Below are positions 1,341-30,606 of a DNA stretch of 30,994 bases, in pieces. The stretch is from a virus. Location of the stretch: IMG/VR virus record IMGVR_UViG_3300005663_000153, positions 1-30,994 of that record; one strand, 5' to 3'. The translations under genes and the position numbers were made by a program. Each line of letters starts with the position of its first letter. Position 1 is the stretch's first letter. The notes under the pieces are model-generated. The model worked only from the letters and a program-made list of their open reading frames with translations, was not told the DNA's origin and did not search any database.

Positions 1341-1350
1341 ATTGTAAAAA

Positions 1351-1382
1351 TATCTAGCAAAATTGAAAAAATATTCTATAAT
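1351..1382 (+). promoter_or_regulatory. Phage promoter, copy 1
   Basis: TATCTAGCAAA at 1351-1361 precedes a perfect TATAAT at 1377-1382. The same upstream motif, the same 26-base start-to-start distance and the same TTC before TATAAT recur at 24312-24343. These are the only two intergenic gaps above 100 bases in the window. Read as a promoter, CTAGCA (1354-1359) is the -35-like element, 17 bases before the -10 element. Transcription would begin near 1390 and run into the endonuclease gene at 1448. The non-consensus -35 box could mean an activator or a modified sigma factor. Confidence 0.65.
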
Positions 1383-1447
1383 ATATGTAGATGGTTATTT
1401 ATTAATAAAGAATGAATTATCTAAAAATATACTATAGGAGCGTTGAT

Positions 1448-2221: not shown

Positions 2222-2242
2222 TACAGGATCAAAGGAGGTATT

Positions 2243-8006: not shown

Positions 8007-8014
8007 GAGATATT

Positions 8015-8407
8015 ATGTTCGATATAGATTGTGATAATTGCGGCGAGGGGTTAGTAATCAACGACATGGCCACTCTAGACCAATATATGAAGGATATGGA
8101 TTATTTAGTCGATGATGAAGGTAAAGTTGTGGATGCATCTATCCAACAATATCTGGTATATCAATGTAGATTATGTGAAAAAACCTATAACTTTACATAT
8201 AAAGAGTGGGAGTTAAGATATCGAAGAAAAACAGCCCAACAGGTAATGGAACTCAAGAAACAGAAAATGTTTTCTGAACATATAAATACACAAGCCGTGG
8301 ACGCAGATAATGGCTTGGAACACTGTGGCCAATGCAGCGGCTTTGCCGGAGATGGCTACTGTCTTGTGGATATTATTAAACAATGTACGATAAGGAAAGA
8401 AAAGTAA
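8015..8407 (+). CDS. Small zinc-ribbon-like protein
   Basis: 130 residues, with AGGAGA (8005-8010) overlapping the preceding stop and a spacing of 4 to the ATG. It has two probable metal sites. An N-terminal CDNCG pairs with CRLCE about 45 residues later, like a split zinc ribbon. Near the C-terminus a second group reads CGQCSGF, then GYCLVD and QCTIR. The middle is a basic, charged helix. Its stop codon abuts the ATG of the 2512-residue gene (TAAATG), so the two are probably co-translated. Location among virion genes could mean a structural or chaperone role, but a regulatory DNA- or RNA-binding role is equally possible. Confidence 0.75.
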   Translation: MFDIDCDNCGEGLVINDMATLDQYMKDMDYLVDDEGKVVDASIQQYLVYQCRLCEKTYNFTYKEWELRYRRKTAQQVMELKKQKMFSEHINTQAVDADNGLEHCGQCSGFAGDGYCLVDIIKQCTIRKEK

Positions 8408-11400
8408 ATGCCATACAACTTCCTTCGGGACGCAAGAATAATTGAAAATTCATTTCTCTGTGTACATGATACATTGGATGCTTATTCATCTGATTTTCAT
8501 ATAAATGGCGACGTGGATAATTGGGACATTTATAACAATATTTATTTATATGGATGTTGGAATGGCACATTGTTTGGTACTGCAAATGATAGAAGCTGTT
8601 ATATAAGTCGTAATAATGTATTCTCGGTGGTGGAAGCAGAAGATTATTATTATATTAAAATATTGATGAAGGTTACTAATAATAATCCAGATAAAGTTGT
8701 AGGGGGTCTTACTACAGGACGTATACAATGGTTAAGATTAGGCGAAGCAGTGTGGGATTCTACTAAGCAGATAGATTTTGATCTTGTAGTTGATGATAAG
8801 TGGAGACTTTATAGTATAAATATGGGGCCAGCTCCTGAGTGGCAGGGCAACATAAATAATTTAAGAGTTTATCCGTTTATAGATGGGTGGTCTGGTGATC
8901 ACTTTGCTATTAAGTTCATAAAGATTAGTTCATTATCTAAATTTGCGTGTGATAATACTCAATGTTCTTATTTTCCTTTCTACGAGCATAACTGCCCTGG
9001 CGCTGGTATAAGAGGCAGTTGTGTGGCTGGTACATCTAGTAGTTTTTATACTACTGTGTCTGGTGTTAGTGATGAACTGGCAGTTGACATTGATGGGTAT
9101 GGGTATGAATATTTTAATCTCGGCGATAATGAAAACGCAACTGGTATAGATATAGCTAAAATAATTGCTAACAAAATAAGTACGTTTAATATAGGTGGTT
9201 ATTCATATTCTAGTTGTGAGTATTCTGAACTAAATAAGTTGAAAATAACTTCTGGTACTGTAGGAACAACAAGTGCTGTTGGAATAACAGGTTCCGCGGC
9301 TAAGTCGTTGGGGTTTGAAGATTCAGAGGAAAATGATATATCAACCAAAGTAACAGGTACTAATCCAGCTACGGGTTTTGATTATGCATCATCAAGATTT
9401 CTTTCGGCTTATGAGATAAGTAAACTTATAGATGGTGATACAGATAACTTTGCATATATGCATGATCCTACTCAATACAGTGTGGAGGGTGGTAGACGAG
9501 ATTTCAATGAAGTAGGTACTTATAGGCTTATATCTAGTTTAGCGGCAGGCGAGTATTATGATTCTTTAAATAATGTGGGTAAGACCATAATAGATTATTC
9601 ACACCCTATAGATAATAATGGTAAATTAAAAGCTGTTTATATGTATGGTAAAGTAGATAGCGCGTCGAGGATAAAAATTTTGAGGCCCAGAAGTGATGGT
9701 CAATTATTAACCGTATACTCATTGAGCTTGCCAACAGAGAACGCTTCATATCTATATACTTCTAGACCATTGGTATATAGAGTAGATTGCGATATACTTG
9801 TAAACAAAGGTGATCTTATAGGGATATATAACGCTGATTTGTATGTTGGCGTGTCAAAGACCGGTTTGCCAGATGCTACTTTCTGTCAAATAAACGGTGA
9901 AGCAACAGGTATTTTTGATCCTGGTGTTCCGTTTTCCTATGGATTGGCTGGGCTTTCTATTTATGCTAGGGGAGATAGATGGCAAACTAACACTATACTT
10001 GATATAGATCTTGGTGACAGAATAAATGTGGAAGAAATAAATATATATGGCAGTGAGGATGCAAGCTATTTTGAGTTTAACGTTGCTAGTTGTCTTGATG
10101 TGAGTTGGGAAGTGGATTTATTTAGTCAATCGCATTATCATACTGGAATAAATTGGATTACTATTGTTGGATTTACAGATATTCATACTAATACGTATTA
10201 CGGTAGAGACGCTCTGGATGATTCTATTCGCACCGCAGATAATGGACAGGTAGGTACTAGTTATGGATCTGATTCCAGTGGGTTGTATACAACTGGTGAC
10301 AACCACTCATATTTTTATGTGAATGGGGATGCTGAGTGGTTGTATAATTATACATGTACAGGTAAGACAGAATATTGTTGGCCAAATGTTCCACGTGGAA
10401 TTGGTGGATTTAAATATGATCCTATAGCTTTTATTCTAAAATTTCCCAATGAAAAATCTGCTCCTATACATAAAAGCATTGTTTATTTCAAGGAGAGAAA
10501 TAACTTTAGAAGTATGGCGTTGTCTTATTATTTAGGTCGATATGAATTTACTGGTAATGCTGATGATACTAAATTTCGATTAATTCCTTCTTATAATTCA
10601 GTAAAGTTAGACGGTATAGAATATTTACCTGGAGATAATGATTATATATTTAATAATCCTACGAGTGCACGAGTTAGGTATGCAAGTGGAAATAAAGATC
10701 CTATAAATTGGGAGGAATATAGTGCATCTATAGGTACCGATTGGACTATAATAGAACATAACTTTGACGAGATAGAGTCTCTTGGGTTTAGAATTTATAC
10801 TAATCATCATAATAGTACTAAAATATCAGAGATAGAGCTTTATAGTAAAATGAAAACCACCCCATCCCTTTTGGATAATGTCACATTGTCTTTTTCAGAC
10901 TATGGAGAAATATGGGTTTCTCCATCTTTTAACGAACTAACTTCTGGAAAAATACAAGCTTTTCTAGGAGGAGCTCCTAGATATATTACTATGGAGTTTG
11001 ATGCCTCTACTGAGTTTTCTATTAATGAAATAGAATTATTGGTCGGGGATCAAGTAAAAACAGGCGATTGTTCTGATATTGTGTTATTAGATCACGCTAA
11101 ATCTGGTGCAGTAAATGAAGCTACTCCTATTACATTGGAAAATGTTTATGACAAGCCGTTTGATTTGACTGTGGATTTACCTCGCCAGACCTATGAGGTG
11201 GATAACCTAGTGTTCTGGAGCAAGATGGGTTCTTACGATGAGATAGAGAAGCCAGAAATAGGTCCGGGGTGCAAACTATTCAAAAGCGATGATCATAATA
11301 TAAGAAATGACAATAGTCAATGCGCAATAAACACACCTTCTTATGCATTGAAAAATATATTGTCTAATAGTAAAAATGCTTATTATAACGAGGACGATGA

Positions 11401-14400
11401 ACACTGGCAAAGTTATGGTACTATTTCCAGCGGTGTATCTTTGGATTTTTGCAATAACTCTTATAGAAAAACTGAATTTACTTTCAATTCAGTGTCTAGT
11501 GAATATTGGAAAATAGGATTTCCACTTATTATAGACTATGTAGATGCTTTTAATGTGGATCCAAACTGGACGATATCGAATACTGGTAGTTATTCTTATG
11601 GCGGCGGTTGGGATAGTATTAATAAGCGATTTAGTTTTACAGTATACAAAGATAATGCTGGGTATCAACTGGCTTACAAAACATTTAATAGCACAATCTC
11701 AGAAGCTGATTCACTTGAAATTAAATTTAAGTTCAGAGCTACTAGTAACAGTGGTCTGGCTGGAGTCAGCATAGGCTTGACAAATATTCCGATAGTTAAG
11801 GCTGGATTGCGCCTTTCTTTTTATCTAAATTCTACTGGTTGGAATTCAATAGAACTAAAGGTTACAAATATGAATGGCTCTATTTCGGATTTAGTGGCAA
11901 TTGTCAATCCAGGGCCTTATTGGCAAATGAATACGGATTATTATGTAAAAGTAACGTCTAATGGGTCCGGTTCTTATGCTATGTTTATATGGACAGATAC
12001 ATGGGATGGTGCTAGTTTGTTTGGTACTAGATCGATGAGCAGCAGTATAGCTTGGGATAGTACCAAATTTGGTATAGTCCATGCTAATCATGGTTCTCAG
12101 GGTAATTCAATATCTGGATGGATAGACGATGTAGATATTAAAAGTCCTTTGATGTCGGTGGAAGCAAGATATATTGATGCTTATTATAACGATACCTTAG
12201 TTGAGATAGAGAAAGTATATTTTGATAGTAGTAATGACAATATGGCTCAAAGCAGTGGGGTAGTTTCTGATGGTGTAGATATGAATCCTGGGCCTGGTAT
12301 ATCTGGATATAACACTGCTATAGGGTTTAAATTGACAGGCTTAGATCCTGTTAATAAAATAAGAATTATACATCAAAATCATCTTTCAGAGTTTTTTAAT
12401 TCCGCCAATGTTTATGTTAATTCTGTAAATGATAATAATTATATTTTATGGGACGATGAAAGTGGTAATTTAAGTTTTAACTATTCGAATAGTACATATA
12501 ATACTTATTTTGTAATTGATTTGTCTAATAGGTACGATATAGATGTAATACGAAATTACGGTAGTGCTACTAATAAATTATTACTGTCAGACTCAAACAT
12601 GGATTATTCTAATAGTGAGGTTTCAAGCCCGTATAATGTAACTTGGGATAATAGTACGCGCAGTGATTTAAGATGGCTACGTGTAAACATACTGACCGGT
12701 GATGAAACTACTAGATGCCTGAGAAAACTTGGTATTTATCCTGAAATAGAGACAGTTTTTGGACCTGCTGGCGGGTACAACTGTGAATGGCAATCTTTGG
12801 GTAATATACTATCGGATTATAATCCGCCTATAAATGTGGCCTATGATGCTACAGTTACAGGCACTAATTATTACTTTTTGGACTACTATCCAGAGAACGC
12901 TGTAAATGGTGTAAACAATGATTATAGAGCTCAAGCTTGTTGGGGATTTCAAGAGGTAGATAGCGTAGATCCTTATATGCGAATAGATTTTGATCAAACC
13001 TACACTATAAATAAAGTTGTACTATATCATGGATATGATCCTGCAGATTCTGGGGTTATGAATACTAATTATACTTTTAGTACTGCATACTCAGTATATG
13101 ATCCTGGACATGAGGTTACTCCATCAGTACGTTATTCTTCATCAACAGGTGTTTTTGGGGATAGTATGTACTTTGATGGATCTACTACTTATTTGACAAT
13201 AGATGACAGTGATGATTGGGATTTTAGATCGAATCATTATGCTATAGATTTTAGAGTTAAATTTTCTAGCTTTAATACTGCTGATGGTTTTGATACATTT
13301 TTATGGTTCGGAGCAGACGTTGATCCTAATGTTGCATTTCAAGTTGATTATAAAAATAGTACTAATAAATTAAGATATGTACCTTATCGTGCATCTACAC
13401 CCAATGTTATAGAGCAGGACTGGACTCCCTCTTTGAATACGTGGTATCATGTAGCTGTGACTTCATTTTCTGGTACCGTTAGATTATTTGTGGACGGCCA
13501 ACAAATAGGTACGACTACTTCTGGTGTGGGATCTAATACTCCACTTGAGTATCCATTATATATAGGTGCTAAAGGAACTACATTTGATAGAAACTTCAAT
13601 GGATATATGGATGAACTGCGTATATCTAAAGGAGACTCTAGATGGACTTCTAATTTTACCCCGCCAACAGAAGCTTATAGTGTTACTAATTCTGGCATAG
13701 ATGATTATGCTAAACTTGTATTACATTTTGATGGAGAAATATATAATCCTGTAGTTTCAGTGAGCAGTAACAGTGATCATTATAGACTGCATCAGTTTGA
13801 TCCTATAAGTGCTTTAAGAGCCAAACTAACAATAACTGGATATGATTATGAAAGGCAGTTAATTATTGATGAGGAGACTGGCTTGTATGAACTGTTTAAA
13901 GGAAGTTATTTGCGTGAAATAGAGATATATACATATACAGATTCTGGGTATGTAAATAGTGAGGATTGGCCTATAGTTGCTACAGATCTTACTGATCAGT
14001 TTGATGTGACGAATCATTCGCTTATTAATAAGGATGTGACAGATACAGATACAGACTGGGATAATAATGAGACATTTTTTAAGTATTCTGATAATATATT
14101 TGATGACCCACAGAAAGTTTCATTCACACTAGATGGAGAATATATTACATATTATCAGAAAACCGATAGTTGGGTGGATGCCGGTGCTACTGAGTATGTA
14201 TTTGGTACTAATGTGTATTTTGATGTTGGTACATATATAGTTGAGTGGGCTGCCTATGCCAGTACAGATTTATTTACTGCTGATTACCCCGAGGAATCAA
14301 AAATTAGTTTAAGACTAGTTGGTCCGGCTACGGTTGATTATTTTGCGGATATAGATGTTGCAACTACATGGCTTAATGAATCAGGCACTATTACTGTACC

Positions 14401-15946
14401 TGAGGCTGGTAGGTATACAGTAAAGGGGGTACAGCATATAGATCCCACATATACTTGGGGGATTAGAAATCCTAATATATACCGATCTACTGGACTTATC
14501 AAATGGGTATCGGTTAAAAGAGATATCGCTGAGAATTATTCATATGACGACGATTCTGGTAAATATGGTAAAGATTATTTAAGTACTTTGAAGGTGTTTG
14601 GAGATACTAAATATAATCCTACTGAATATAACTGGTGGTGGAACTCAACGATTAGTACTTTAAGTAATGATGCCTTAACTGTTAAAGTCGGTAGAAGATC
14701 CCTAAAGATAGACTATCCAGATTCATCTACTGCTGATACGGTATCGTTTATAGAGGGTGATGATTTTGGCTTCGATGAGTATTTTGATATAAAAGACGTA
14801 CTACACTTCTGGTGGTATATAAGTGATGTAAGTAAATTGGACTTGAGTTTTGGGGATGTAACTTTTGGTGTGATAAATAGCGCGGACAATGCTTACTATA
14901 AATGGGATGTAAGTGATATGAGTTTAAGTACAGGCTGGAATGATATGCGGCTGAAATTTGAAGACGCAAGTGAATTTTATCCGTCCGCTGATGAATTTGA
15001 ATCTATATTTGGCTTTGTGTCTCCCAAGATAGATTTTAAAAATAATGGCAAGGATCTGTCGTCCATTAGATTTAGATTTCGTGGGGTTGGTCAGGCATTT
15101 ATTATGAATATAGATGATCTAAAAATACAACGAAATGTGTTTGAAGACGATGTCAAATTTGACAAAGGGATGTGCCTTATTGGGCATGATTATTTAGAAA
15201 TTCCGCTAGCAGGGATGACATTAGAACGAGGTACTATAGAATTCTGGATGAAACCATACACTGATAGCACTGGAAGGAATTTATTTAATGATTTAAATTC
15301 TCGATTATTATTCTCGATGGTAAATAATAACAACAATATTATTTCGCTGGGAATAAAATCAGGAGCATGGCTACAGCCAATTACAGGACATATAAGAAAA
15401 GCTCTGAGTACTTTTGAGATAGATGTAGGGGATTTACCGTCTAATAGTTTCATAAGCATAAATGAAATTATACACATAGCATTTGTATGGAGCCATGATG
15501 GCTCATTTACTGACAATAAAGACACCATTAGGATTTACATAAACAATGAGTTGATTGTAACAAGTAAAATTGCCTGGCGGGTAAATGATACGAAATCAGC
15601 GGTCATAAAACTAGGCGGAGCTACCGCTCAGACCGCACATAATAGTGACACTTATGGAAGCGCGATTTTTGACAACGTAAAAATTTATAACTATTGTAAG
15701 ACTGAATTTAATATAGAAACAGAGGGAGTAGAAAAAGATATTTCATACACCGCTAATGAATTTTTGCAGATCAGCGAGAATGGTACTGATTTTTACGGCA
15801 TGGGTTCTACAAATTTACCTATAGTTTTTCAAGCTGTACCAGCTGGGACGAGTAAAACTATATATGTAAGACCTGCTAAAAATGAAAGATTTGCACAGAG
15901 CCCAAATACTGCAAGCATCCTTGTAGAATGGCTCACAACGGTGTGA
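8408..15946 (+). CDS. Giant multidomain adhesin-like tail protein with LamG domains (2512 aa)
   Basis: 2512 residues in one frame, the largest gene here. The ATG directly follows the upstream stop, with AAGGAAAG ahead of it. It reads as a chain of beta-sandwich modules. An N-terminal jelly-roll-like segment covers about residues 20-180. A SGT/LGF module near 281-318 resembles the one in the truncated gene at the window start. Discoidin-like pieces follow (IDGDTDNFA near 341; PENAVNG and RIDFDQTYTINKVVLYHG near 1480-1545), with another jelly-roll at about 1046-1248. A clear LamG-like domain lies at about 1575-1755 (SMYFDGSTTYLTI, WYHVAV, GYMDELRISKG), and a second LamG-like domain at about 2255-2425 (GTIEFWMKPY, IFDNVKIYNY). 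LamG and discoidin folds often bind glycans, so the likely role is a side fibre or receptor-binding component. No trimerisation or catalytic motif was recognised. Confidence 0.8.
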   Translation: MPYNFLRDARIIENSFLCVHDTLDAYSSDFHINGDVDNWDIYNNIYLYGCWNGTLFGTANDRSCYISRNNVFSVVEAEDYYYIKILMKVTNNNPDKVVGGLTTGRIQWLRLGEAVWDSTKQIDFDLVVDDKWRLYSINMGPAPEWQGNINNLRVYPFIDGWSGDHFAIKFIKISSLSKFACDNTQCSYFPFYEHNCPGAGIRGSCVAGTSSSFYTTVSGVSDELAVDIDGYGYEYFNLGDNENATGIDIAKIIANKISTFNIGGYSYSSCEYSELNKLKITSGTVGTTSAVGITGSAAKSLGFEDSEENDISTKVTGTNPATGFDYASSRFLSAYEISKLIDGDTDNFAYMHDPTQYSVEGGRRDFNEVGTYRLISSLAAGEYYDSLNNVGKTIIDYSHPIDNNGKLKAVYMYGKVDSASRIKILRPRSDGQLLTVYSLSLPTENASYLYTSRPLVYRVDCDILVNKGDLIGIYNADLYVGVSKTGLPDATFCQINGEATGIFDPGVPFSYGLAGLSIYARGDRWQTNTILDIDLGDRINVEEINIYGSEDASYFEFNVASCLDVSWEVDLFSQSHYHTGINWITIVGFTDIHTNTYYGRDALDDSIRTADNGQVGTSYGSDSSGLYTTGDNHSYFYVNGDAEWLYNYTCTGKTEYCWPNVPRGIGGFKYDPIAFILKFPNEKSAPIHKSIVYFKERNNFRSMALSYYLGRYEFTGNADDTKFRLIPSYNSVKLDGIEYLPGDNDYIFNNPTSARVRYASGNKDPINWEEYSASIGTDWTIIEHNFDEIESLGFRIYTNHHNSTKISEIELYSKMKTTPSLLDNVTLSFSDYGEIWVSPSFNELTSGKIQAFLGGAPRYITMEFDASTEFSINEIELLVGDQVKTGDCSDIVLLDHAKSGAVNEATPITLENVYDKPFDLTVDLPRQTYEVDNLVFWSKMGSYDEIEKPEIGPGCKLFKSDDHNIRNDNSQCAINTPSYALKNILSNSKNAYYNEDDEHWQSYGTISSGVSLDFCNNSYRKTEFTFNSVSSEYWKIGFPLIIDYVDAFNVDPNWTISNTGSYSYGGGWDSINKRFSFTVYKDNAGYQLAYKTFNSTISEADSLEIKFKFRATSNSGLAGVSIGLTNIPIVKAGLRLSFYLNSTGWNSIELKVTNMNGSISDLVAIVNPGPYWQMNTDYYVKVTSNGSGSYAMFIWTDTWDGASLFGTRSMSSSIAWDSTKFGIVHANHGSQGNSISGWIDDVDIKSPLMSVEARYIDAYYNDTLVEIEKVYFDSSNDNMAQSSGVVSDGVDMNPGPGISGYNTAIGFKLTGLDPVNKIRIIHQNHLSEFFNSANVYVNSVNDNNYILWDDESGNLSFNYSNSTYNTYFVIDLSNRYDIDVIRNYGSATNKLLLSDSNMDYSNSEVSSPYNVTWDNSTRSDLRWLRVNILTGDETTRCLRKLGIYPEIETVFGPAGGYNCEWQSLGNILSDYNPPINVAYDATVTGTNYYFLDYYPENAVNGVNNDYRAQACWGFQEVDSVDPYMRIDFDQTYTINKVVLYHGYDPADSGVMNTNYTFSTAYSVYDPGHEVTPSVRYSSSTGVFGDSMYFDGSTTYLTIDDSDDWDFRSNHYAIDFRVKFSSFNTADGFDTFLWFGADVDPNVAFQVDYKNSTNKLRYVPYRASTPNVIEQDWTPSLNTWYHVAVTSFSGTVRLFVDGQQIGTTTSGVGSNTPLEYPLYIGAKGTTFDRNFNGYMDELRISKGDSRWTSNFTPPTEAYSVTNSGIDDYAKLVLHFDGEIYNPVVSVSSNSDHYRLHQFDPISALRAKLTITGYDYERQLIIDEETGLYELFKGSYLREIEIYTYTDSGYVNSEDWPIVATDLTDQFDVTNHSLINKDVTDTDTDWDNNETFFKYSDNIFDDPQKVSFTLDGEYITYYQKTDSWVDAGATEYVFGTNVYFDVGTYIVEWAAYASTDLFTADYPEESKISLRLVGPATVDYFADIDVATTWLNESGTITVPEAGRYTVKGVQHIDPTYTWGIRNPNIYRSTGLIKWVSVKRDIAENYSYDDDSGKYGKDYLSTLKVFGDTKYNPTEYNWWWNSTISTLSNDALTVKVGRRSLKIDYPDSSTADTVSFIEGDDFGFDEYFDIKDVLHFWWYISDVSKLDLSFGDVTFGVINSADNAYYKWDVSDMSLSTGWNDMRLKFEDASEFYPSADEFESIFGFVSPKIDFKNNGKDLSSIRFRFRGVGQAFIMNIDDLKIQRNVFEDDVKFDKGMCLIGHDYLEIPLAGMTLERGTIEFWMKPYTDSTGRNLFNDLNSRLLFSMVNNNNNIISLGIKSGAWLQPITGHIRKALSTFEIDVGDLPSNSFISINEIIHIAFVWSHDGSFTDNKDTIRIYINNELIVTSKIAWRVNDTKSAVIKLGGATAQTAHNSDTYGSAIFDNVKIYNYCKTEFNIETEGVEKDISYTANEFLQISENGTDFYGMGSTNLPIVFQAVPAGTSKTIYVRPAKNERFAQSPNTASILVEWLTTV

Positions 15947-15956
15947 GGAGAATGGA

Positions 15957-16349
15957 ATGGGTAAGAAATTAACTATAGAATATATAAGAGAACAATTTGA
16001 AAAAGAGGGTTATAAATTATTAAGTAAGAAATACGTAGGCGCTCATATTAAATTGAAATATGTGTGTTCTAAAGGACATAGACACAATATTACTTGGAAT
16101 AATTGGAGTAATGGAAGGAGGTGTCCATATTGTGCTGGCCGGCCGCACTCTGATTGCTGGCACATCAACAAGCAGTTAGTTATTCATCACATTGATTATA
16201 TTAAGAAGCACTGTAATCCATGGAATTTAATTACTCTATGTAGATCATGTAATGGTCGAGCAAATAAAAATAGGAAATGGCACACATCTTACTATACGGA
16301 AATAATGATAAAGAGAGGTTTATCACATGCAGTACAACTTAATTCGTAA
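15957..16349 (+). CDS. Mini HNH endonuclease with one zinc module (internal-deletion form)
   Basis: 130 residues. GAGGAG (15945-15950), overlapping the stop of the giant gene, sets the ATG at 15957. One N-terminal zinc module carries ligands C37, H41, C56 and C59 (CSKGH, then CPYC). It is fused almost directly to an HNH core: H77-H78-x-D80 (IHHIDY), N90, C95 and C98 (LCRSCN). Compared with the 284-residue relative at 21599, two of three zinc modules and about 45 residues before the HNH core are missing. The join falls between CAGR and SDCW, so the first cysteine of the usual HNH pair is gone while C67 remains. Its 3' end overlaps the next structural gene by 23 bases and contains that gene's ribosome binding site. 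It may still cut or nick DNA, or be a decayed but translated remnant. Confidence 0.85.
   Translation: MGKKLTIEYIREQFEKEGYKLLSKKYVGAHIKLKYVCSKGHRHNITWNNWSNGRRCPYCAGRPHSDCWHINKQLVIHHIDYIKKHCNPWNLITLCRSCNGRANKNRKWHTSYYTEIMIKRGLSHAVQLNS
16313..16318 (+). promoter_or_regulatory. Ribosome binding site for 16327 inside HNH gene
   Basis: GAGAGG lies eight bases before the ATG at 16327. It is read as part of the IMIKRGL codons of the upstream HNH gene, so the coding sequence of the endonuclease supplies the initiation signal for the downstream structural gene. Confidence 0.7.
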
Positions 16350-18516
16350 CGGATCATTAAAATCACTAACATCTAGTGGAACAGGTAATACTAGTCTGTC
16401 GTGGGCGCAACTGGAGAGTTTATTAGATGGGACCACTGCTTCTGGTGGGGTATCAGTGACTGTGTCTGGCGTACTTTATTTAGAGGCAGATATAAGTCAA
16501 CGAATAAAATTAGATTCTGTACGTCTTTATAGCAGTGACTTAACAAAATCAGCTAATATTGTATTTTATGTTAAAGATGCTGAAAGCAGTAGTTATAGCC
16601 AACTCACTACAAATGTGTCAACTTATTATTATCCAACATTGGTAGAGCCTAAAGCACCGAGATTTGTTCTTGTTACTATTTCTGGCGTTGGTATGACTAT
16701 CCATGAATATGAGGCGGTGAATAATGATTATATAGTAGCATTTGGTTCTGATGGAAGTCAATATGCTAAGTATTTGGAAGATACTCCAGTGGGTTCAGAA
16801 GGAACTGCAGAGACTATTTCATTATTTAATAATAGTAGTTCTTTAACCGGTATGGCTGCCACGGCTTACACAGTAGTTGATTATACAGGTAGTGTTGCGG
16901 ATGAGTATGTAAAAATTTCGTCGAGTCAAAATGGAACATATTACGGAATAGAGGATGGCGCTTTAATAGAAGATGATAATCTTAATTCAACTTATAGATG
17001 GAGTATGGGATCGTTTGTTGATACTGAGGTTAGTGTTGACGAAGTAATAATCTCATCACCCAGTACAAGTGGAACTTACGCCACCCCCATATTCAAATTG
17101 GACAATCAATATAACTCAAGTTATTTTATAACAGATGGGACAGCTGTTAGTGGAACTGGTAGTATTAGTTATGATGCAAATGTTTATAATGGAACTATAA
17201 GAGTGAAGAGTAGTAATACGGAGCCAACACCTATATCTGAAGCGTATTTGGTACTTGCTACTAGAAACATGAATCCTACAAAATATATACCATATACTAG
17301 TTCTTATGCTACATGGTTTAGTTATGATGGTGGCGCAAGTACTTATGGAATGTCTATGGCTGTAGATAGACGTACTGGTTATGTTGTAATGACATACATG
17401 TATTCTTTTTCTACTACTGTACGTACATATGTGCGTATATATAATAGATCAGGTGGTGTTGTTATTACGGGTCTTTGGAGTGATAGTAACTATGCTTATT
17501 CTGGAGATGTAAATTTAGAATTTGATAAGAGTGGGGGTTTATGGTCATATTCGAGTTCATATAATCCAGATGCTCCTGGGACTCCTCGAACTTTGAAGCA
17601 TATTAACAGTACTCTGAGCGCTTTAGCGTCTATAAGTGATAGTTTTATTGATTTTTTATATGATTTTGCTGTTGAATTAGATGGTGACGGAGTATGGTAT
17701 ACAGATAAGGTGGACGATTTGGTAATACATAAGAATACTAGTGGTACAACGATACATAGTATTGCTTTAGAAACACCCCGGGCTATATGTGGTACACTTG
17801 ATAATGGGTGTTGGGTAGTAGACAATAAAGATGGTGATACTGCTACAGCGTATAGATATAATTCGAGTGGGGGGGTGGTAAAAACTGTTACTTTACCAGA
17901 AACACCGGCTTATAATAATACACAGGTTAATAGAGTGACTACTGATTATGAGGATGGTTTTTGGTATAGACATGATAGTTATGTATATCATGTTACTAGT
18001 GGCGGCTCGGTAGATGTAGGACCAATTTTTATTAATAATGCTAACAGATTAAGGGGTGCTCACAACGGCTGTTTTGTTATAAGTACGACTAATAATATGT
18101 TGTATTTTATTGATAAGGCCGCGGGAGATATAACAAGATCTACTAGTATTGCGAGTAATGCACAACCTGTGTTTGGTGTTTTTCCTTTTAATAATGATTC
18201 AGTTGTAGAGTTTCAAAATACTTCTAACTGGATACCAGCTTCATATGATCCAGTATGGGGAATTGGTGGTACTGCTGAATGGCAAGAAGTAAGAAAGGAT
18301 GGGTATTTTTTACCTAAGGCGAGATACCATAGAACAGAAGTTACTCTTAGGGGCGACGCTACACTGGAGAAAATTTTGTTGCCGCCAGCAATAAAAACTG
18401 AAGACATACAACCTCAACAGAGTCAAAATATTTATATTAAGACAGATATACCTGAAGGGGCTGATATAACAGATTACGAAACTAGGATCAAAACTTGGTT
18501 CGGGGTACAAGAATAA
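16327..18516 (+). CDS. Tail-like protein with beta-propeller segment (729 aa)
   Basis: 729 residues, starting inside the preceding HNH gene. The N-terminal start (MQYNLIRNG) loosely resembles that of the 2512-residue protein (MPYNFLRDA), which may mark a shared attachment segment. Residues about 55-320 are Ser/Thr/Tyr-rich beta sequence. From about 328 to 635 a repeated pattern appears: GGLWSYS, DGVWYTD, NGCWVVD, DGFWYRH and NGCFVIS near residues 403, 455, 493, 543 and 581. Spacing alternates roughly 50 and 38, as expected for blades of an NHL- or lyase-type beta-propeller. The last about 70 residues (KARYHRTEVTLRG, then NIYIKTDIPEGADI) look like a compact C-terminal beta domain. Probable receptor-binding or fibre-tip protein; no enzymatic residues were identified. 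Confidence 0.75.
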   Translation: MQYNLIRNGSLKSLTSSGTGNTSLSWAQLESLLDGTTASGGVSVTVSGVLYLEADISQRIKLDSVRLYSSDLTKSANIVFYVKDAESSSYSQLTTNVSTYYYPTLVEPKAPRFVLVTISGVGMTIHEYEAVNNDYIVAFGSDGSQYAKYLEDTPVGSEGTAETISLFNNSSSLTGMAATAYTVVDYTGSVADEYVKISSSQNGTYYGIEDGALIEDDNLNSTYRWSMGSFVDTEVSVDEVIISSPSTSGTYATPIFKLDNQYNSSYFITDGTAVSGTGSISYDANVYNGTIRVKSSNTEPTPISEAYLVLATRNMNPTKYIPYTSSYATWFSYDGGASTYGMSMAVDRRTGYVVMTYMYSFSTTVRTYVRIYNRSGGVVITGLWSDSNYAYSGDVNLEFDKSGGLWSYSSSYNPDAPGTPRTLKHINSTLSALASISDSFIDFLYDFAVELDGDGVWYTDKVDDLVIHKNTSGTTIHSIALETPRAICGTLDNGCWVVDNKDGDTATAYRYNSSGGVVKTVTLPETPAYNNTQVNRVTTDYEDGFWYRHDSYVYHVTSGGSVDVGPIFINNANRLRGAHNGCFVISTTNNMLYFIDKAAGDITRSTSIASNAQPVFGVFPFNNDSVVEFQNTSNWIPASYDPVWGIGGTAEWQEVRKDGYFLPKARYHRTEVTLRGDATLEKILLPPAIKTEDIQPQQSQNIYIKTDIPEGADITDYETRIKTWFGVQE

Positions 18517-19361
18517 TGAAGAAATATAGTTTAAACTATGTGAAAAAATCATTTGCTTTAGATAATTATAAATTGACATCTAATGATAAATATATAAATG
18601 GACGCCAAAAATTTGATTATATTTGTTCTAAAGGACATAGACATAGTATTAGTTTTGGCAAATGGCTAGAGGGTAGGAGATGTCCTTATTGTGATGGTCA
18701 GGGAAAACCTACTATTGAATTTATACGATCACAGTTTGAGAATATAAACTATATTCTTTTAACAGATGTATATGTAAACTCATGTAATAAATTAGAATAT
18801 ATTTGTTCAAATGGACATCAACGTAAAATTAGTTGGAATGATTGGCGATTAGGCAGGCGGTGTATTCACTGCCTTGTATTAGATAAGATTGAATCATCCT
18901 TTGAGAATGAAAACTATATTATTTTGTCAATAGATAACTTTAGTTGGCGAGCAAGAGTATTATATAAATGTTCTTTAGGCCATGAGCATGCAGTAAGTTG
19001 GTCTAACTGGAGTAGAGGAACCAGGTGCCCAACATGTGCTTATATTAAAAAATCTGGCCCAGGACATCCAAATTGGAAAAATGGTATTTCCTGTGAGCTT
19101 TACTGCGATGCATGGGCGGATAAAGAATATAAGGAAGATATAAAAGCTAGAGATAATTATGAATGTCAAAACCCATATTGTTGGGGAACTGGTACTAGGT
19201 TAGTTCTACATCATGTAGATTATATAAAAAAGAATTGCATTCCGGTGAATTTAATAACACTGTGTAATTCATGTAATAGTGGAGCTAATTTTAGAAGAGA
19301 ATTTCATGAAGAGTTTTATAAAAATATTATGAAAAACATAGTGGGGAGTAGAATAAAATGA
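18516..19361 (+). CDS. HNH homing endonuclease with three zinc modules
   Basis: 281 residues. The start is the ATG in TAATG at 18516, sharing one base with the upstream stop. An in-frame TTG at 18495 is rejected because all family members begin at the equivalent M-x(1-3)-K/R-x-(S/T) position. Three N-terminal C-x3-H...C-x2-C modules have ligands C37/H41/C56/C59, C97/H101/C116/C119 and C152/H156/C171/C174; the third repeat is five residues short. The C-terminal HNH core has C217 and C222, H232-H233-x-D235 (LHHVDY), N245, C250 and C253. An NPNWKNG-like NUMOD3-style element (HPNWKNG) precedes the core. HNH enzymes cut or nick DNA through a His-metal finger; the zinc modules probably read the target. 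It ends in an ATGA overlap with the next tail gene and carries that gene's GGGGAG site. Confidence 0.88.
   Translation: MKKYSLNYVKKSFALDNYKLTSNDKYINGRQKFDYICSKGHRHSISFGKWLEGRRCPYCDGQGKPTIEFIRSQFENINYILLTDVYVNSCNKLEYICSNGHQRKISWNDWRLGRRCIHCLVLDKIESSFENENYIILSIDNFSWRARVLYKCSLGHEHAVSWSNWSRGTRCPTCAYIKKSGPGHPNWKNGISCELYCDAWADKEYKEDIKARDNYECQNPYCWGTGTRLVLHHVDYIKKNCIPVNLITLCNSCNSGANFRREFHEEFYKNIMKNIVGSRIK
19343..19348 (+). promoter_or_regulatory. Ribosome binding site for 19358 inside HNH gene
   Basis: GGGGAG is nine bases before the ATG at 19358 and lies within the last codons of the upstream HNH gene. Confidence 0.6.
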
Positions 19362-21595
19362 GTCTTGCTGGATGGAATAATAATAAAAAACTAACATTAA
19401 CCATAGATTCGACCAAGGTAGATGAAAATATCATCAATTTTCCTGTACTTATAACTTTATCATCTGGTACTGGTATAACTAGCTTTGATGCTTCAGCTGT
19501 ATTTACTGAATTAACTCCTGCTTCTGGTACTTTAGCTTCTGGCACAGTATTATTATTACATTGTGATGGAACAAATGGAAGTACATCTTTTATAGATGAA
19601 TCAACTAGTAGTCATACGATCACAGCTAATGATAACGCACAAATATCTACTGCGCAGTCTATGTTTGGTGGTTCTAGTGCTTATTTTGATGGTACAGGAG
19701 ATTATTTGAGTATAGCTGATAGTGCCGACTGGGATTTTGCAGGCGGCCCTTTCACTATTGATTTTCGGGTAATGAAAGATGTTTCTCATACAGGAATTGG
19801 GCATGTAATTTCACGCTGGGACAGTGTAAATAATGATGAAAGGTGGTCGATAAGATATAATGATAATGATCTCCAGGTTTTTCTGGGCGCGTGGCAAACT
19901 ATAACACTAGGAGTGGATAATAATTGGCACCATGTAGTATGGATTTATGATTCTGGTTTAAATACAGTTTATTTTGATGGTATAGAAGAATTATCCTATT
20001 CGTTTACTTTAAATGATCATACTTCTCAATTAAGGGTAGGAGGTTTATCTGCCTCCGAACTTGCAGGATATATAGACGAGCTTCGTATTTCAAAAGGAAT
20101 AGCTCGTTGGACTTCAGATTTTATTCCGCCGACAGGACCATATGGAAGCTCTTGGGATAATAGAAAGAAAATAGCTGTTACGGCCACTGTTTCTGGAGTA
20201 GAAACTGAACTACCTGTTGAAATAGATTACTGGGATTCAGAAAATAATCAATCATGGTTATGGACTAAAGTTCCGACTATAGTTTCTGGAACTGACACTA
20301 CTCTTTATTTATACTATGATTCTACACACACTATTAATTCTGGTTATATAGGCGATACTGGCGAAACACCAGCACAAAGTGTTTGGGATAGTAATTTTGT
20401 CGGTGTATGGCATATGGGACAAAGTCCTGCCGGAGATGTATCTGATATAATGAGGGATTCTACATCTAATAGTAATGATGGAACTCCTGGTGGATCCATG
20501 ACTAGTGCCGATTTAATAGATGGGCAGATTGGTAAAGCTATAGATTTTGATGGCAGTGATGATTTAATAGACTGTGGGACGGATGCCAGTCTGGATATTA
20601 CTGGAGCTTTAACTATATCAGCTATTGTGAAGCCACTAACTAACCCAGCTTTTGCTGGTATTATAGATATGGCCCAGGAGAGTACTTCAATTGAAAATTA
20701 CTCCATGTTGAATTTCGCTGGCACTCTTTACTTTCAGTACAATAATAGTGGCTGGCAAAGTCACATTGAATCTAGCTTTTTTGATACTGGGGTACAACAA
20801 TCAGTTGATATAACCTATAATGCTGGAACTATACAATTTTATAAGGATGGTTCTCCAACTACTAGTGTAGGTGGAAAACCAGTTTTAGTGTCTGATACTT
20901 CTAATACATTCAAAATTGGTAGATATCAAGTTGGTAGTCAAGGTAATTTTGATGGTATAATAGATGAAGTACGTATATCCGACAGTGTTCGTTCAACTGC
21001 CTGGACTAAAGCCACTTATTATAGTAATTTTGGTGATTTGATTACCTATGCATTAGGCATAGAACCCACCATTTTTACTTTTAGTGGTCCTATACCGATA
21101 CATTTATCCACAGTTTATGGAACTAATCACACATTACAACTTACAACAACTATTACTGGTGCAGATATTCCCTATGTATATGCTGCTACATTTTATGATG
21201 ATGGCAATAATCAAATAGGATCTACTGTTTATGGGCTGGATAGTGGTGCTCAAGCTACTTCTACAGCAGCATTATCCACGCCGGCTGCTACAACTTATAG
21301 TTGGTATATCAAATCAACTTCAAGTGGTAGTACAGGGACTAGTCAAACCTATACTTTTACAAATAGATTTTTGTGCGAAGGGTACACAGAGGTTAATGGT
21401 ACTCGTGCTTCAGGAATTCCTGTGAGACTTTATAGACGAAGTACTGGTGTATTAGTAAGTGGTACTGAGTCTACTGGTGTTAGTGGTACATTTTCAATAG
21501 TAACCTCATATAATGAAGCACATTATGCTGTTGCACTGCATCCCACTGATAGTGGGACTAATGCCTTAATTTATGATTATCTTACGCCGGAGTAA
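19358..21595 (+). CDS. DUF2341/LamG receptor-binding-like tail protein (745 aa)
   Basis: 745 residues, starting in an ATGA overlap with the upstream HNH gene. Modules in order: a DUF2341-like opening (GWNNNKKLTLTIDS, residues 5-40); a LamG-like domain at about 75-255 (YFDGTGDYLSIADSADWDF, YIDELRISKGIARWTS); a second DUF2341 segment at about 265-330 (SWDNRKKIAVTATVSG); a second LamG-like domain at about 347-550 (VGVWHMGQ, AIDFDGSDDLIDCG, IIDEVRISDSVR); an FN3/Ig-like stretch at about 565-670; and a carboxypeptidase-regulatory-like beta-sandwich at the end (ASGIPVRLYRRSTG, then GTFSIVTSYNE). Such chains of carbohydrate-binding folds are common in phage tail fibres and surface adhesins. The first LamG domain is closely similar to one in the 2512-residue protein. 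Most likely a fibre or receptor-recognition protein; the ligand is unknown. Confidence 0.82.
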   Translation: MSLAGWNNNKKLTLTIDSTKVDENIINFPVLITLSSGTGITSFDASAVFTELTPASGTLASGTVLLLHCDGTNGSTSFIDESTSSHTITANDNAQISTAQSMFGGSSAYFDGTGDYLSIADSADWDFAGGPFTIDFRVMKDVSHTGIGHVISRWDSVNNDERWSIRYNDNDLQVFLGAWQTITLGVDNNWHHVVWIYDSGLNTVYFDGIEELSYSFTLNDHTSQLRVGGLSASELAGYIDELRISKGIARWTSDFIPPTGPYGSSWDNRKKIAVTATVSGVETELPVEIDYWDSENNQSWLWTKVPTIVSGTDTTLYLYYDSTHTINSGYIGDTGETPAQSVWDSNFVGVWHMGQSPAGDVSDIMRDSTSNSNDGTPGGSMTSADLIDGQIGKAIDFDGSDDLIDCGTDASLDITGALTISAIVKPLTNPAFAGIIDMAQESTSIENYSMLNFAGTLYFQYNNSGWQSHIESSFFDTGVQQSVDITYNAGTIQFYKDGSPTTSVGGKPVLVSDTSNTFKIGRYQVGSQGNFDGIIDEVRISDSVRSTAWTKATYYSNFGDLITYALGIEPTIFTFSGPIPIHLSTVYGTNHTLQLTTTITGADIPYVYAATFYDDGNNQIGSTVYGLDSGAQATSTAALSTPAATTYSWYIKSTSSGSTGTSQTYTFTNRFLCEGYTEVNGTRASGIPVRLYRRSTGVLVSGTESTGVSGTFSIVTSYNEAHYAVALHPTDSGTNALIYDYLTPE

Positions 21596-21598
21596 AAA

Positions 21599-22453
21599 AT
21601 GCCTAAAAAACTAACTATAGAGTTTGTGCGAGATAAGTTTAAGGAAGAAAAATGTTTATTATTGTCAAATGAATATATAGACAGTAATATTAAGCTTAGT
21701 TATGTATGCCCTAACAGCCATGAACATAGTATTACATGGGGTGATTGGTATGCAGGCCATAGATGTTCTTACTGTGCTGGTCAAGGTAAACCAACTATAG
21801 AATTTATTATGTTATTGTTTGAGATTGAAAACTATATCCTTTTGACAAAGGAATATATAAATTGTGAACAAAAGCTAGAATATATTTGCCCAAACGATCA
21901 TAGATATAATATTAGTTGGGATATGTGGCAGCAAGGATATAGATGCTCTTATTGTTATGGAAATGCTAAACTTACTATAGAATTTATTAAGGAGCAATTT
22001 GAAGATGAAGGATGGATACTTGAATCTACTGAATATATCAACAGTAGGCAAAAACTATATTGTATTTGTTCTAAAGGACATAGACATAGGATTAGATGGA
22101 ACAATTGGCAGCAGGGCTGTAGATGTCCTGTGTGTGCTTATATTAAATTAGAAGGTGATGGAAATCCTTCATGGAATAGCGGCGCTTCTTTTGAGCCTTA
22201 TTCTATAGAATTTAATAATAGATTGAAAAAATCTATTTTTGAGCGTGATAATTATATTTGCCAAAACTCTGATTGTTGGAAAACCAGTAAAAGATTATGT
22301 AGCCATCATATTGATTATGATAAAAAGAATTGTGATCTATCTAATTTAATTACACTATGTAATTCCTGTAATTCTAGGGCTAATTTTAATCGAAATTTTC
22401 ATATAAATTTTTATAAGTCTATCATGATTAAACGAGGGCTGATTAATGCCTAA
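21599..22453 (+). CDS. HNH homing endonuclease with three 60-residue zinc modules
   Basis: 284 residues; CGGAG (21588-21592) six bases ahead sets the ATG three bases after the upstream stop. It is the most regular member of the family. KLTIEFV, KPTIEFI and KLTIEFI begin at residues 4, 64 and 124, and the metal ligands C37/H41/C56/C59 recur at exactly +60 and +120. A GNPSWNSG element (188-195) leads into an HNH core with C221 and C226, H236-H237-x-D239 (SHHIDY), N249, C254 and C257, followed by ANFNRNF. This is the expected fold for a free-standing homing endonuclease that cuts intron- or insertless alleles of neighbouring genes. The C-terminal IMIKRG codons contain the ribosome binding site of the next tail gene, which it overlaps by eight bases. 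Confidence 0.9.
   Translation: MPKKLTIEFVRDKFKEEKCLLLSNEYIDSNIKLSYVCPNSHEHSITWGDWYAGHRCSYCAGQGKPTIEFIMLLFEIENYILLTKEYINCEQKLEYICPNDHRYNISWDMWQQGYRCSYCYGNAKLTIEFIKEQFEDEGWILESTEYINSRQKLYCICSKGHRHRIRWNNWQQGCRCPVCAYIKLEGDGNPSWNSGASFEPYSIEFNNRLKKSIFERDNYICQNSDCWKTSKRLCSHHIDYDKKNCDLSNLITLCNSCNSRANFNRNFHINFYKSIMIKRGLINA
22434..22438 (+). promoter_or_regulatory. Ribosome binding site for 22446 inside HNH gene
   Basis: GAGGG lies seven bases before the ATG at 22446 and is part of the codons for KRG near the end of the HNH protein, the same arrangement as at 16313. Confidence 0.65.
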
Positions 22454-24290
22454 TTATATCCCGCCAAATATAAGGAATATTCCTTTTAGCTTTACGACTG
22501 GTGGATACACTAAGCCGGATTTTAGTGAGGTACCTTTCCGGTTTGGGCTTAGACCTACTTTTCAACAAACAGCAGATCTACAAGCTGCTATTAATGTAAT
22601 TAGTCAATCAAGTGCTGATTTGTCAGCGTCTATTTCTTCCACTAGTCTTCAAGGTTATGATAATTTAAATGCTTATATAAAGCCCACTATTCAAACTTAT
22701 AGTGATTTAGTGGCTGCTATACGAAGATTCGATCAAGATGATAATGATCTGGGCGGAGATGTACATGGTTGGGCTATAAAAGATTTAGGTGTAGAAATAG
22801 GAGCACACCCTCCGGCTGATCTGCTTGGTAGTATAAATATAATAGAGCTACGAAATTTAAGTGCGACAATTAATAGTGTATTGCTTGCTGGACCAGTTGA
22901 TTTAGGTGCAAGAATAAATATATTTCAGAGTACTTATGCTAATTTGACCGCTTCTATTGCTAGTAATTTATTGCTGGGTGATTTGTCTGCTAGTATAAAT
23001 ATAATTGATTTTACAAATTTGCCTGCTGTAATTAAATCGTTTACTCAAGCTTATAAAGATTTAGGCGCGGCTATTAATCCTGGCGAAAAATTAGACTTAG
23101 GCGGCATACTACATGGTTGGGCTATAAGTAATTTGGGCGCTACTTTAATTGGAGGATATGGTCCATATGATATACAAGCTTCTCTAAACCCAATTCCTGG
23201 TCAAGATCTTTCCGCAATTATCAGAGGTTGGAAAGGATTTCAAATTCCTGTAGATTTACCAGCTTTGGTGTCTAGCTGGGCAACCACAGATTTGAACGCT
23301 ATTATTAGTTTAATAGAGGCGGCTGATCTTGGAGCTTCGATAACTGCAATTGGAAAATTGGCAAACTTAGGTGCTATAATTATACCGAAGACTATTTTAA
23401 TGAAGCGAGCTTTGCAAATATCTTTGTTGGAACATAAAGATATGAAAGCTGTAATAAATTTTCAGTGTTTTGGGTCTGCTTATAGTAATTTAGGCGCATC
23501 TATGTATACCATATATAAGTCAGAGTTGAAAGCTTTTATCACAGGGTGGTATGGTGGAGGTACAGCAGATACTATAAGGGACTTGGGAGCTTATATAAAC
23601 GCCGAAGACTATTATGTGGAAGATAAATTTACAGTAACTTTTGTCCCGGCGGTAAGAAAATATACACAACTAAACATAAACTTTAGTGTGAATGATGTAT
23701 ATAAAACATTTGATACTTTACCAATAATATATGGAAGTTTTTACGGCGCCAATCTTTCAGCTACTATAAATGGCATACTTAATAGTTATGATCTTGGAGC
23801 AACAGTAACACCAGTGTTACAAACAAATTATACAGAGCTACCTGAAAATGTAAGTCCAAAAACACATGAAATTGTTATTGATTTTAATAATAGGTGGAGA
23901 GAAAACTGGCGTAGATTTGTTGAGATAATGTTTCAGAGAGGCGGTGCCGAGCCGTTCCATTATTTTTATGTAAAGGGATCAAATACAATTTATAGAGTCG
24001 ATAGAGAACGGCATTGGACTATATGGGCCGATTCTTATTTAAATACTGAAGATGATATGGTAGAGCGTAGAGATATACGACAGAAGTACATCTTTAATAT
24101 GTCCAATTATAGCACAGTAGATGAAGCTGTTAGAGATCTGATTGATAGAGTTTCAACTTATAGAAGAGCGAGTTTAGGGGCTTCCATAGTAGGTGAGTGG
24201 GGCCCAATGGCTGATCTGTCGGCGTATATTGATCCTAAAGTAAAATACAGCTGGGTAAAACATTTAGGTGCTTCTATAACTGGCTTATAA
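22446..24290 (+). CDS. Repeat-built tail/fibre protein with (D/N)LxAxI units (614 aa)
   Basis: 614 residues. After an N-terminal segment of about 40 residues, a degenerate unit (D/N)-L-x-A-x-I recurs every 12-16 residues: 21 consecutive units start between residues 44 and 307 (for example DLQAAIN, DLSASIS, NLNAYIK, DLGARIN, NLTASIA, DLGASIT). More occur near 332-380, 436-450 and 577-610. Two longer variants contain HGWAI (residues 107 and 223). Each unit looks like one short beta-strand and a turn, consistent with a beta-solenoid or intertwined fibre shaft. A separate globular-looking domain interrupts the repeats at about 466-575 (FNNRWRENWRRFVEIMF, FHYFYVKGSNTIYRVDRER). There is no signal peptide or membrane segment. 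It is the last gene of the structural block. The repeat type is not one I can name. Confidence 0.75.
   Translation: MPNYIPPNIRNIPFSFTTGGYTKPDFSEVPFRFGLRPTFQQTADLQAAINVISQSSADLSASISSTSLQGYDNLNAYIKPTIQTYSDLVAAIRRFDQDDNDLGGDVHGWAIKDLGVEIGAHPPADLLGSINIIELRNLSATINSVLLAGPVDLGARINIFQSTYANLTASIASNLLLGDLSASINIIDFTNLPAVIKSFTQAYKDLGAAINPGEKLDLGGILHGWAISNLGATLIGGYGPYDIQASLNPIPGQDLSAIIRGWKGFQIPVDLPALVSSWATTDLNAIISLIEAADLGASITAIGKLANLGAIIIPKTILMKRALQISLLEHKDMKAVINFQCFGSAYSNLGASMYTIYKSELKAFITGWYGGGTADTIRDLGAYINAEDYYVEDKFTVTFVPAVRKYTQLNINFSVNDVYKTFDTLPIIYGSFYGANLSATINGILNSYDLGATVTPVLQTNYTELPENVSPKTHEIVIDFNNRWRENWRRFVEIMFQRGGAEPFHYFYVKGSNTIYRVDRERHWTIWADSYLNTEDDMVERRDIRQKYIFNMSNYSTVDEAVRDLIDRVSTYRRASLGASIVGEWGPMADLSAYIDPKVKYSWVKHLGASITGL
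22575..23387 (+). repeat. Array of 21 degenerate 12-16-residue protein repeats
   Basis: Residues 44 to about 314 of the 614-residue protein: (D/N)LxAxI units begin at residues 44, 58, 73, 87, 101, 113, 125, 137, 152, 166, 179, 191, 205, 217, 229, 242, 254, 270, 282, 294 and 307. DNA identity between units is low, so the array is old rather than a recent tandem expansion. Confidence 0.8.
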
Positions 24291-25503: not shown

Positions 25504-25911
25504 ATGACAGAAAGAACGTTAGCAATTGTTAAACCGGACGCTGTAAAAAGGGATCTGATAGGTCACATACTCACCAGAATGGAACTGGAAGGATTTAAAA
25601 TAGTTGACATGAAAATGACATTGTTGTCCAAAAAACAAACAGAAGAACTCTATAAAGTGCATAAAGATAAGCCGTTTTTCGAGGGTCAGACAGATTTTAT
25701 GTCGAGTGGGCCATGTGTAATGTTGGTATTAGAAGGAGCGGGTGTTATAGAAAAGTATAGAAAATTGATGGGGCCCACAGATTATATGAAATCAGAACCA
25801 CATACAATTAGACATGAACTTGCGACAGATATACGACATAATATAGTTCATGGATCTGATTCTGAAGAGTCGGCAAACTTTGAGATTAGTTTTTTTCAAC
25901 GTATTAAATAA
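25504..25911 (+). CDS. ndk: Nucleoside diphosphate kinase
   Basis: 135 residues, preceded by GGAGAG directly after the upstream stop. It transfers the gamma-phosphate from NTPs to (d)NDPs through a phospho-histidine (EC 2.7.4.6). Signature features: TLAIVKPDAVKR (5-16), the LMGPTD loop, TIRHELATD, and the active-site block N113-x-x-H116-GSDS-x-E with H116 as phospho-acceptor. Length is close to that of bacterial enzymes (about 140). The usual NPxxAxPGTIR segment is changed to DYMKSEPHTIR, a variation that keeps the TIR. In this operon it would convert dTDP and other dNDPs to triphosphates for phage replication. Confidence 0.95.
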   Translation: MTERTLAIVKPDAVKRDLIGHILTRMELEGFKIVDMKMTLLSKKQTEELYKVHKDKPFFEGQTDFMSSGPCVMLVLEGAGVIEKYRKLMGPTDYMKSEPHTIRHELATDIRHNIVHGSDSEESANFEISFFQRIK

Positions 25912-29574: not shown

Positions 29575-30142
29575 TAGCTATTATAATAATACCTATTATA
29601 TCCATATAAAAGTAGATAAAGATCTTATTGGTCTTATGGATCATTGGGAGAACGATGTATGTAATGTGCACCGGTGGGAGGTGTCAGAGGATCTTTTTTC
29701 CAGCAAGCATTTTTTTGTAATACTTACCAATAAATTATATGACTTTTATAAACGTACAGGTATGAAGTACACTGCTGGGTATGATTGTGGTTTTGATGAT
29801 GTGCCTAATTTTAGGCCCCCGACAGAGTCTGTGTATCAATTTGAGGATAGAGTACAAACCATAGATGAAAATAAACGTATTTGTAGACATGTATTTTGTT
29901 TGAAAGATAATCAAATAGAAATTCTGAAAAAAATAGATGATCGTAAAGCTGAGAGAGGTGCTGCTGAGGTTGTATTAGTTCCAACTGCTCCAATTTTGAA
30001 AAATCCATGGTATAAATGGTGCATTACGCATATAATACTTGGTATTGCTGTGCTTGGAACTTTAGCTTTTATTTTCAAAACGGAGGTTTTGGATAAACAT
30101 TATCCCAAGGCTCGTGAAAATATTATGGAGAAGTTTAAATGA
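29564..30142 (+). CDS. Single-pass C-terminal membrane protein (192 aa)
   Basis: The ATG at 29564 is chosen because GAGG (29554-29557) is six bases upstream; the ATG at 29558 touches that site. The first about 150 residues are a soluble-looking alpha/beta domain with several Tyr, His and Cys residues. One hydrophobic segment near the C-terminus (HIILGIAVLGTLAFIF) is preceded by KNPWYKW and followed by a charged tail of about 20 residues (FKTEVLDKHYPKARENIMEK). It would be anchored in the host membrane with most of the chain cytoplasmic, if the flanking positive charges act as usual. Function unknown; lysis, exclusion and signalling roles are all possible. It ends in an ATGA overlap. Confidence 0.7.
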   Translation: MRHSSYYNNTYYIHIKVDKDLIGLMDHWENDVCNVHRWEVSEDLFSSKHFFVILTNKLYDFYKRTGMKYTAGYDCGFDDVPNFRPPTESVYQFEDRVQTIDENKRICRHVFCLKDNQIEILKKIDDRKAERGAAEVVLVPTAPILKNPWYKWCITHIILGIAVLGTLAFIFKTEVLDKHYPKARENIMEKFK

Positions 30143-30606
30143 CAATAGAAGACGCACTAAATAAACGAGCAGAAGAACTGATGGTATTCAAAATGCCAAA
30201 AAATGAAGGTCTTATGAATGAGATATTTTCGTTTGATGTAAGAAATCTGGAGGCTACGCCATCAGCGAAGATCTCGCAGTATACCATAGGTCTTTCACAG
30301 TTCCTAATTTTTTTCTCGTCGCAAATCAACAAGACCAAGGTACAACTAATGCAGAAGAATAGGGTCATAGATACCTACATAAACCAGTCAGAACTCAAAG
30401 GTACTAAAGTGGAAAGAAGGCGGAAAGTAATAGATGCACATGAAGAACTACAAGCCATAGAAAAAGGCGTTGAACTTCTTGAGGCAGAAATAAAGCTGAC
30501 AGATGGTTTAGAAAAACATTATCTTGAACTTATACAAAGTTTTAAGAGAGAACTTACGCGTAGAGAGCATGAAATGAAATTTAGTAGGGACGAGCGGAGA
30601 TTATAG
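30139..30606 (+). CDS. Helical protein, possible recombination accessory factor
   Basis: 155 residues, starting in an ATGA overlap. Apart from a short N-terminal leader it is predicted helical and highly charged: SQYTIGLSQFLIFFSSQINK (46-65), then long helices with KVERRRKVIDAHEELQAIEK and a basic end (RELTRREHEMKFSRDERR). No membrane segment or catalytic motif. Size, helical make-up and linkage to recA recall UvsY-type recombination mediators, but I see no diagnostic sequence match. It is a hypothesis only; a coiled-coil structural or chaperone protein is the alternative. Confidence 0.65.
   Translation: MTIEDALNKRAEELMVFKMPKNEGLMNEIFSFDVRNLEATPSAKISQYTIGLSQFLIFFSSQINKTKVQLMQKNRVIDTYINQSELKGTKVERRRKVIDAHEELQAIEKGVELLEAEIKLTDGLEKHYLELIQSFKRELTRREHEMKFSRDERRL

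Follow-up and report, generated by a model that had tools for sequence, protein, structure and literature searches.

Free-standing HNH endonuclease genes between the tail genes of a metagenomic phage: empty alleles, occupied alleles, and ribosome-binding sites at the junctions

Zinc-module HNH endonucleases at the locus

The window analyzed here is the whole of a 30,994-base metagenomic virus record, IMGVR_UViG_3300005663_000153. With genes named by their first position, the order 286-2243-2544-8015-8408-16327-(19358)-22446-thy-clamp-recA-28708-29215-30139 is largely conserved in relatives. A nucleoside diphosphate kinase gene, recognized by sequence at 25504–25911, adjoins the thymidylate synthase-like gene and the sliding clamp gene and has a counterpart only in L016/G006 and L118/L129 among the relatives read. 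The tail region contains, all on the plus strand, a 2512-residue LamG/F5-8C-like adhesin gene (8408–15946), a 729-residue gene (16327–18516), a 745-residue LamG-domain gene with matches to phage baseplate/virion PHROG families (19358–21595), and a 614-residue gene (22446–24290).

The three consecutive junctions between these adhesin or tail genes (sites 1, 2, and 3) are occupied by three related plus-strand genes, H1, H2, and H3, which have the 16327, 19358, and 22446 genes, respectively, as their targets. H2 (18516–19361, 281 residues) and H3 (21599–22453, 284 residues) each encode three zinc modules of approximately 60 residues followed by an HNH domain, and are 49 to 51% identical in amino acid sequence. 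The nuclease class follows from matches to PHROG HNH/endonuclease families (phrog_559, E = 6e-23, for H3; phrog_681, 2e-19), the Pfam HNH match being sub-threshold, and the motif HHxDY...LITLCxSCN...AN..R is conserved in the endonucleases. H1 (15957–16349) is shorter, with 130 residues and a single zinc module; the Pfam CapR homology domain (PF21817) scores above the cut-off with 27 bits, and DUF4379 and HNH are sub-threshold. H1 lacks the linker of about 39 residues, including the first Cys region, that precedes the HNH core in H2 and H3, and it lacks part of the nuclease fold; it is probably a degenerating copy in which the reading frame has been kept.

The genes fit tightly between their neighbors. 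On the left, H1 starts 10 nt past the stop at 15946, H2 starts by a TAATG over the stop at 18516, and H3 starts 3 nt past the stop at 21595. On the right, the next gene is overlapped by 23 nt in the case of H1, by 4 nt in the case of H2 (ATGA), and by 8 nt in the case of H3 (AATGCCTAA), the H3 stop TAA lying inside the downstream gene. Strings resembling a Shine–Dalgarno (SD) sequence occur in the last codons of H1 (AAGAGAGG, codons for KRG), H2 (GGGGAG, VGS), and H3 (GAGGG, KRG). Upon re-reading of the frames and junctions, the coordinates, overlaps, and relatedness given for the three genes in the first-pass annotation held, as did its observation that each gene carries the SD of the downstream gene in its last codons, twice within KRG. 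Its description of HNH genes between every pair of tail genes was too strong, since junctions 2544/8015 and 8015/8408 have none and a fourth family member, H4 (30608–30994, plus strand), follows a non-tail gene (30139–30606; site 4). H4 is incomplete, being cut by the contig end.

The window has one further homing-type endonuclease, at 1412–2221 on the plus strand, which is unrelated to H1–H4 (helix-turn-helix, NUMOD3, phage endonuclease I/PD-(D/E)XK-like) and lies in the 286/2243 junction. This junction, empty in G003 and G005, is an endonuclease hotspot (NUMOD3-type in the window; L025, 6065–9064); in G008 the same gap holds a zinc-module frame of about 667 codons together with a relative of the window's endonuclease that is split over two frames. 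Gene 8015–8404, with a weak PHROG hit, was considered as a further endonuclease and rejected, being conserved at 54 to 60% in the relatives that cover the gene.

Empty and occupied alleles in relatives

Syntenic contigs were found by a RecA-guided scan followed by alignment-guided scans; scans with single tail proteins, and searches of phage collections with the 22446, 2544, and clamp proteins, found no relatives. The relatives are mostly 40 to 60% identical to the window in protein sequence, and those found first lacked HNH genes at all three tail junctions. Site 1 is occupied in three contigs (the window, L131, and L130) and empty in seven, whereas site 4 is occupied in two (the window and L112) and empty in about 20. 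Sites 2 and 3 are empty in the relatives, apart from site 2 of L130. The zinc-module endonuclease family was also found at non-tail junctions, namely between recA and the next gene (recA/28708; L114 and L117), at the 29215/30139-type junction (L112), after the 30139-type gene, and at the 286/2243-type junction. The neighbors of the endonucleases are complete and syntenic with the empty alleles, the insertions lying inside neither introns nor inteins. Alignment across the junctions, which had been proposed as a check on mobility, thus revealed empty alleles at site 4 as well as at the three tail junctions, in support of mobility. Between the 28708- and 29215-type genes of L020, a zinc-module-only frame of about 74 codons (1265–1447) is perhaps an endonuclease remnant.

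Local DNA similarity among H1–H3 (65–86%) and the origin of the window as a viral contig from a metagenome would both fit an assembly artefact in which endonuclease fragments of different phages had been joined. We regard such an origin as hardly credible because the independent contigs L131, L130, and L112 have insertions of this kind at the same places but with endonuclease alleles that differ, and all frames are intact.

A tree of 23 family members, in which most deep forks are weakly supported, is not grouped by insertion site, and best hits agree with the tree in this independence from the sites. The site-1 endonucleases of L131, L130, and the window do not group as sisters, whereas the copies at sites 1 and 2 of L130 do (support 100/100; 65% amino acid identity), indicating spread within one genome. 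In cultured phages of Bacillus, Staphylococcus, and Lactococcus, homologous zinc-module endonucleases are present. Because the tree does not follow the insertion site, the genes appear to be mobile, free-standing homing endonucleases.

The opposite outcome, HNH genes at the same junctions in all relatives or inherited vertically with the tail genes, was not seen: most relatives lack the genes, and their phylogeny is not sorted by insertion site. A rival reading is that of domesticated genes, vertically inherited and useful to the phage, perhaps through recombination of receptor-binding genes. The occupation of three consecutive adhesin-like junctions would fit such a role, as would the strong variation in number and size of the LamG-type genes here among relatives (four in L115). 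Domestication is nevertheless very unlikely, given that most relatives lack the genes at these sites, that the genes occur at non-tail junctions as well and form no site-specific clades, and that H1 looks decayed. The earlier suggestion that the endonucleases could drive shuffling of receptor-binding genes gained no evidence, and since the family also occupies non-tail junctions, such as that beside recA, we see no tie to receptor-gene shuffling. The four genes of L115 that resemble the 19358 LamG gene (573–9970) have no zinc-module endonucleases between them and point to an expansion of adhesin genes at the locus.

Initiation signals at the junctions

In the seven empty alleles of site 1, the tail genes abut with a stop-to-ATG spacer of 9 to 13 nt (for example TATAGGAGAATAAAGATG in L129 and TAAAGGGGAGTTAAAATG in L022). 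A clear SD is present in five of these; L122 and L123 have a weak SD only. The first-pass annotation had asked whether the downstream gene has a ribosome-binding site of its own where the cassette is absent, and at the sites compared it usually does. In the occupied alleles, the sequences before the endonuclease (TGAGGAGAATGGAATG in the window and TTTAGGAGAATTGAATG in L131) have the same GGAGAAT SD, and the sequences before the target (AAAGAGAGGTTTATCACATG and CGAAGGAGAAATTTAGTAAATG, respectively) have a different SD, inside the 3′ end of the endonuclease gene. In the window, the spacer past the upstream stop (15947–15956, plus strand; GGAGAATGGA), which corresponds to the target's own SD in empty alleles, would now initiate H1, and the replacement SD lies in the KRG codons at the 3′ end of H1, ahead of the ATG of the 16327 gene (16310–16329, plus strand; AAAGAGAGG).

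The other sites vary this arrangement. At site 3, the left SD (CCGGAGTAAAAATG) falls within the final codon of the gene upstream, whereas in empty alleles it is in the spacer. In the empty alleles of site 4, the 30139-type gene contains the SD within its final codons (GAAAGGAGAATTTAATG), often with a TAATG or TAGTG overlap, and in the occupied alleles (the window and L112) the ATG of the endonuclease takes that overlap position; in L112, the stop of the endonuclease overlaps the start of the target in a TAGTG as in the empty L020. At recA/28708, the empty L115 was compared with the occupied L117 and L114, and in each case homology resumes at the ATG of the target. No consistent co-conversion tract was found beside this insertion, downstream identity being 93% for L115/L117 and 80 to 83% for other pairs. 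The site-1 insertion of L130 and the insertions of L114 and L117 have no strong embedded SD. Presence and absence alleles as seen here also exist in cultured phages: between the occupied AM5 and the empty LW81, Lactococcus phages that are about 93% identical, homology resumes within approximately 6 nt of the target's ATG.

Taken from alleles at 40 to 93% identity, and hence not exact to the base, these boundaries suggest that the cassette fills the slot between a pre-existing SD and the start codon that it served. Noncoding DNA is rarely alignable at 40 to 60%, the protein identity of most relatives, so the start-codon boundary could partly mark where alignable coding sequence begins.

The first-pass annotation had further proposed that the element carries a portable initiation signal. 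We compared gene pairs over all fetched contigs using a simple, purpose-made gene caller, with which start choices are approximate. The SD begins within the coding sequence of the upstream gene in 23 of the 53 pairs with an endonuclease upstream and in 256 of the 577 others (Fisher p = 1.0); within the syntenic lineage the numbers were 3/5 and 153/276, and a further comparison gave 20/48 and 77/236 (p = 0.25). Ordinary pairs of the window, such as 8015/8408 and 25926/27053, have an embedded SD too. A special link between the embedded SD and these endonucleases was therefore rejected, and the proposal of a portable signal is not supported, because embedding is equally common behind non-endonuclease genes; it is ordinary compact-operon geometry in these phages. 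Overlaps of at least 5 nt into the next gene are somewhat commoner for endonucleases (20/53 versus 116/577, p = 0.005), as expected if these use whatever out-of-frame stop the target offers.

There are features that would favor a dedicated, selected ribosome-binding site at the 3′ end of the element, making insertion before any gene possible: H1 and H3 have IMIKRGL in common, with the SD in the KRG codons and in equal phase to the next ATG, and several family members (L028, L032, and L046) end in RRY (AGGAGATAT), readable as an SD. Yet many members have an SD past their stop or none, and the C-terminal motif retains its Arg in members with no SD embedded there (L029, L040, and L045), which, next to the equal frequencies given above, makes such a dedicated signal improbable.

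A general seating rule may be considered tentatively, and we think it less probable than its negation: the endonuclease family would insert between SD and start codon, taking the target's SD and supplying a new one from conserved C-terminal codons. This would lock the endonuclease in place, since the downstream gene would fall silent if the 3′ end of the endonuclease were cleanly lost. In a literature search of incomplete coverage, no published description of such an SD hand-over was found.

Relation to known free-standing endonucleases

Free-standing endonucleases of phage T4 often lack a promoter of their own, overlap the stop of the upstream gene, and carry the promoters of downstream genes, which favors their retention (PMC2988022). 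Like H1–H4, the mob and seg genes of T-even phages are promoter-less cassettes in operons between conserved genes; mobE has a start/stop overlap with its upstream gene (UAAUGA), as found here, and in both systems expression signals of downstream genes are embedded in the endonuclease coding region (PMC2988022). The embedded signals described for T4 are promoters, whereas those observed here are ribosome-binding sites in the last codons (PMC2988022). The putative DNA-binding part also differs from that of the T-even enzymes, being an N-terminal zinc-module array.

Arrays homologous to those of H1–H3 are found in Lactococcus phages AM1–AM12 and WRP3 and in Bacillus phage Eldridge, where the endonuclease lies between tail tube and appendage genes, a place that is empty in Goe8. 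In Eldridge (L135, 3001–3900) and AM5 (L134, 2992–4113), the array is joined to a different, nuclease-like C-terminal domain, which as read from the sequence rather than by domain search is not the HNH of H1–H3, suggesting that nucleases may be swapped on a common DNA-binding array. Unlike in H1–H3, the SD of the next gene lies outside the endonuclease gene in both phages.

In lactococcal Skunavirus phages, many I-HmuI-like HNH genes occupy eleven locations, and marker exclusion has been shown for some (PMC12724721). These resemble the present family in that many genes occur at several junctions, with truncated copies; their phylogeny clusters by insertion location, which is not the case here at the divergence sampled, and by published description their DNA-binding domain differs from the zinc-module array (PMC12724721).

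Considering this evidence together, H1–H4 are very probably free-standing (intronless) HNH homing endonuclease genes, that is, selfish cassettes in co-directional phage operons. The elements are a clear case of an already known class, with an anatomy of unusual clarity, and not a new kind of element. Each cassette would have its seat precisely at the target gene's start codon, so that the target's old SD, whether it lies in a short spacer or within the final codons of the gene upstream, would initiate the endonuclease, and an SD in the endonuclease's last codons would initiate the target, the endonuclease stop falling in or over the target's first codons. With one initiation signal taken and another supplied, both neighbors would stay translated. 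The cassettes would most likely spread during co-infection, when the endonuclease would cleave the DNA of a relative that lacks it, at a site in a flanking gene, and repair would copy the cassette with its flanks. New junctions would presumably be reached through illegitimate recombination, as a rare event, with selection retaining those products in which the downstream gene is expressed.

The empty and independently occupied alleles give a clear comparative picture of how homing endonucleases may settle in gene-dense operons with the expression of their neighbors unbroken. They suggest that ribosome-binding sites, as well as promoters, can be what keeps a cassette of this type from being lost easily.
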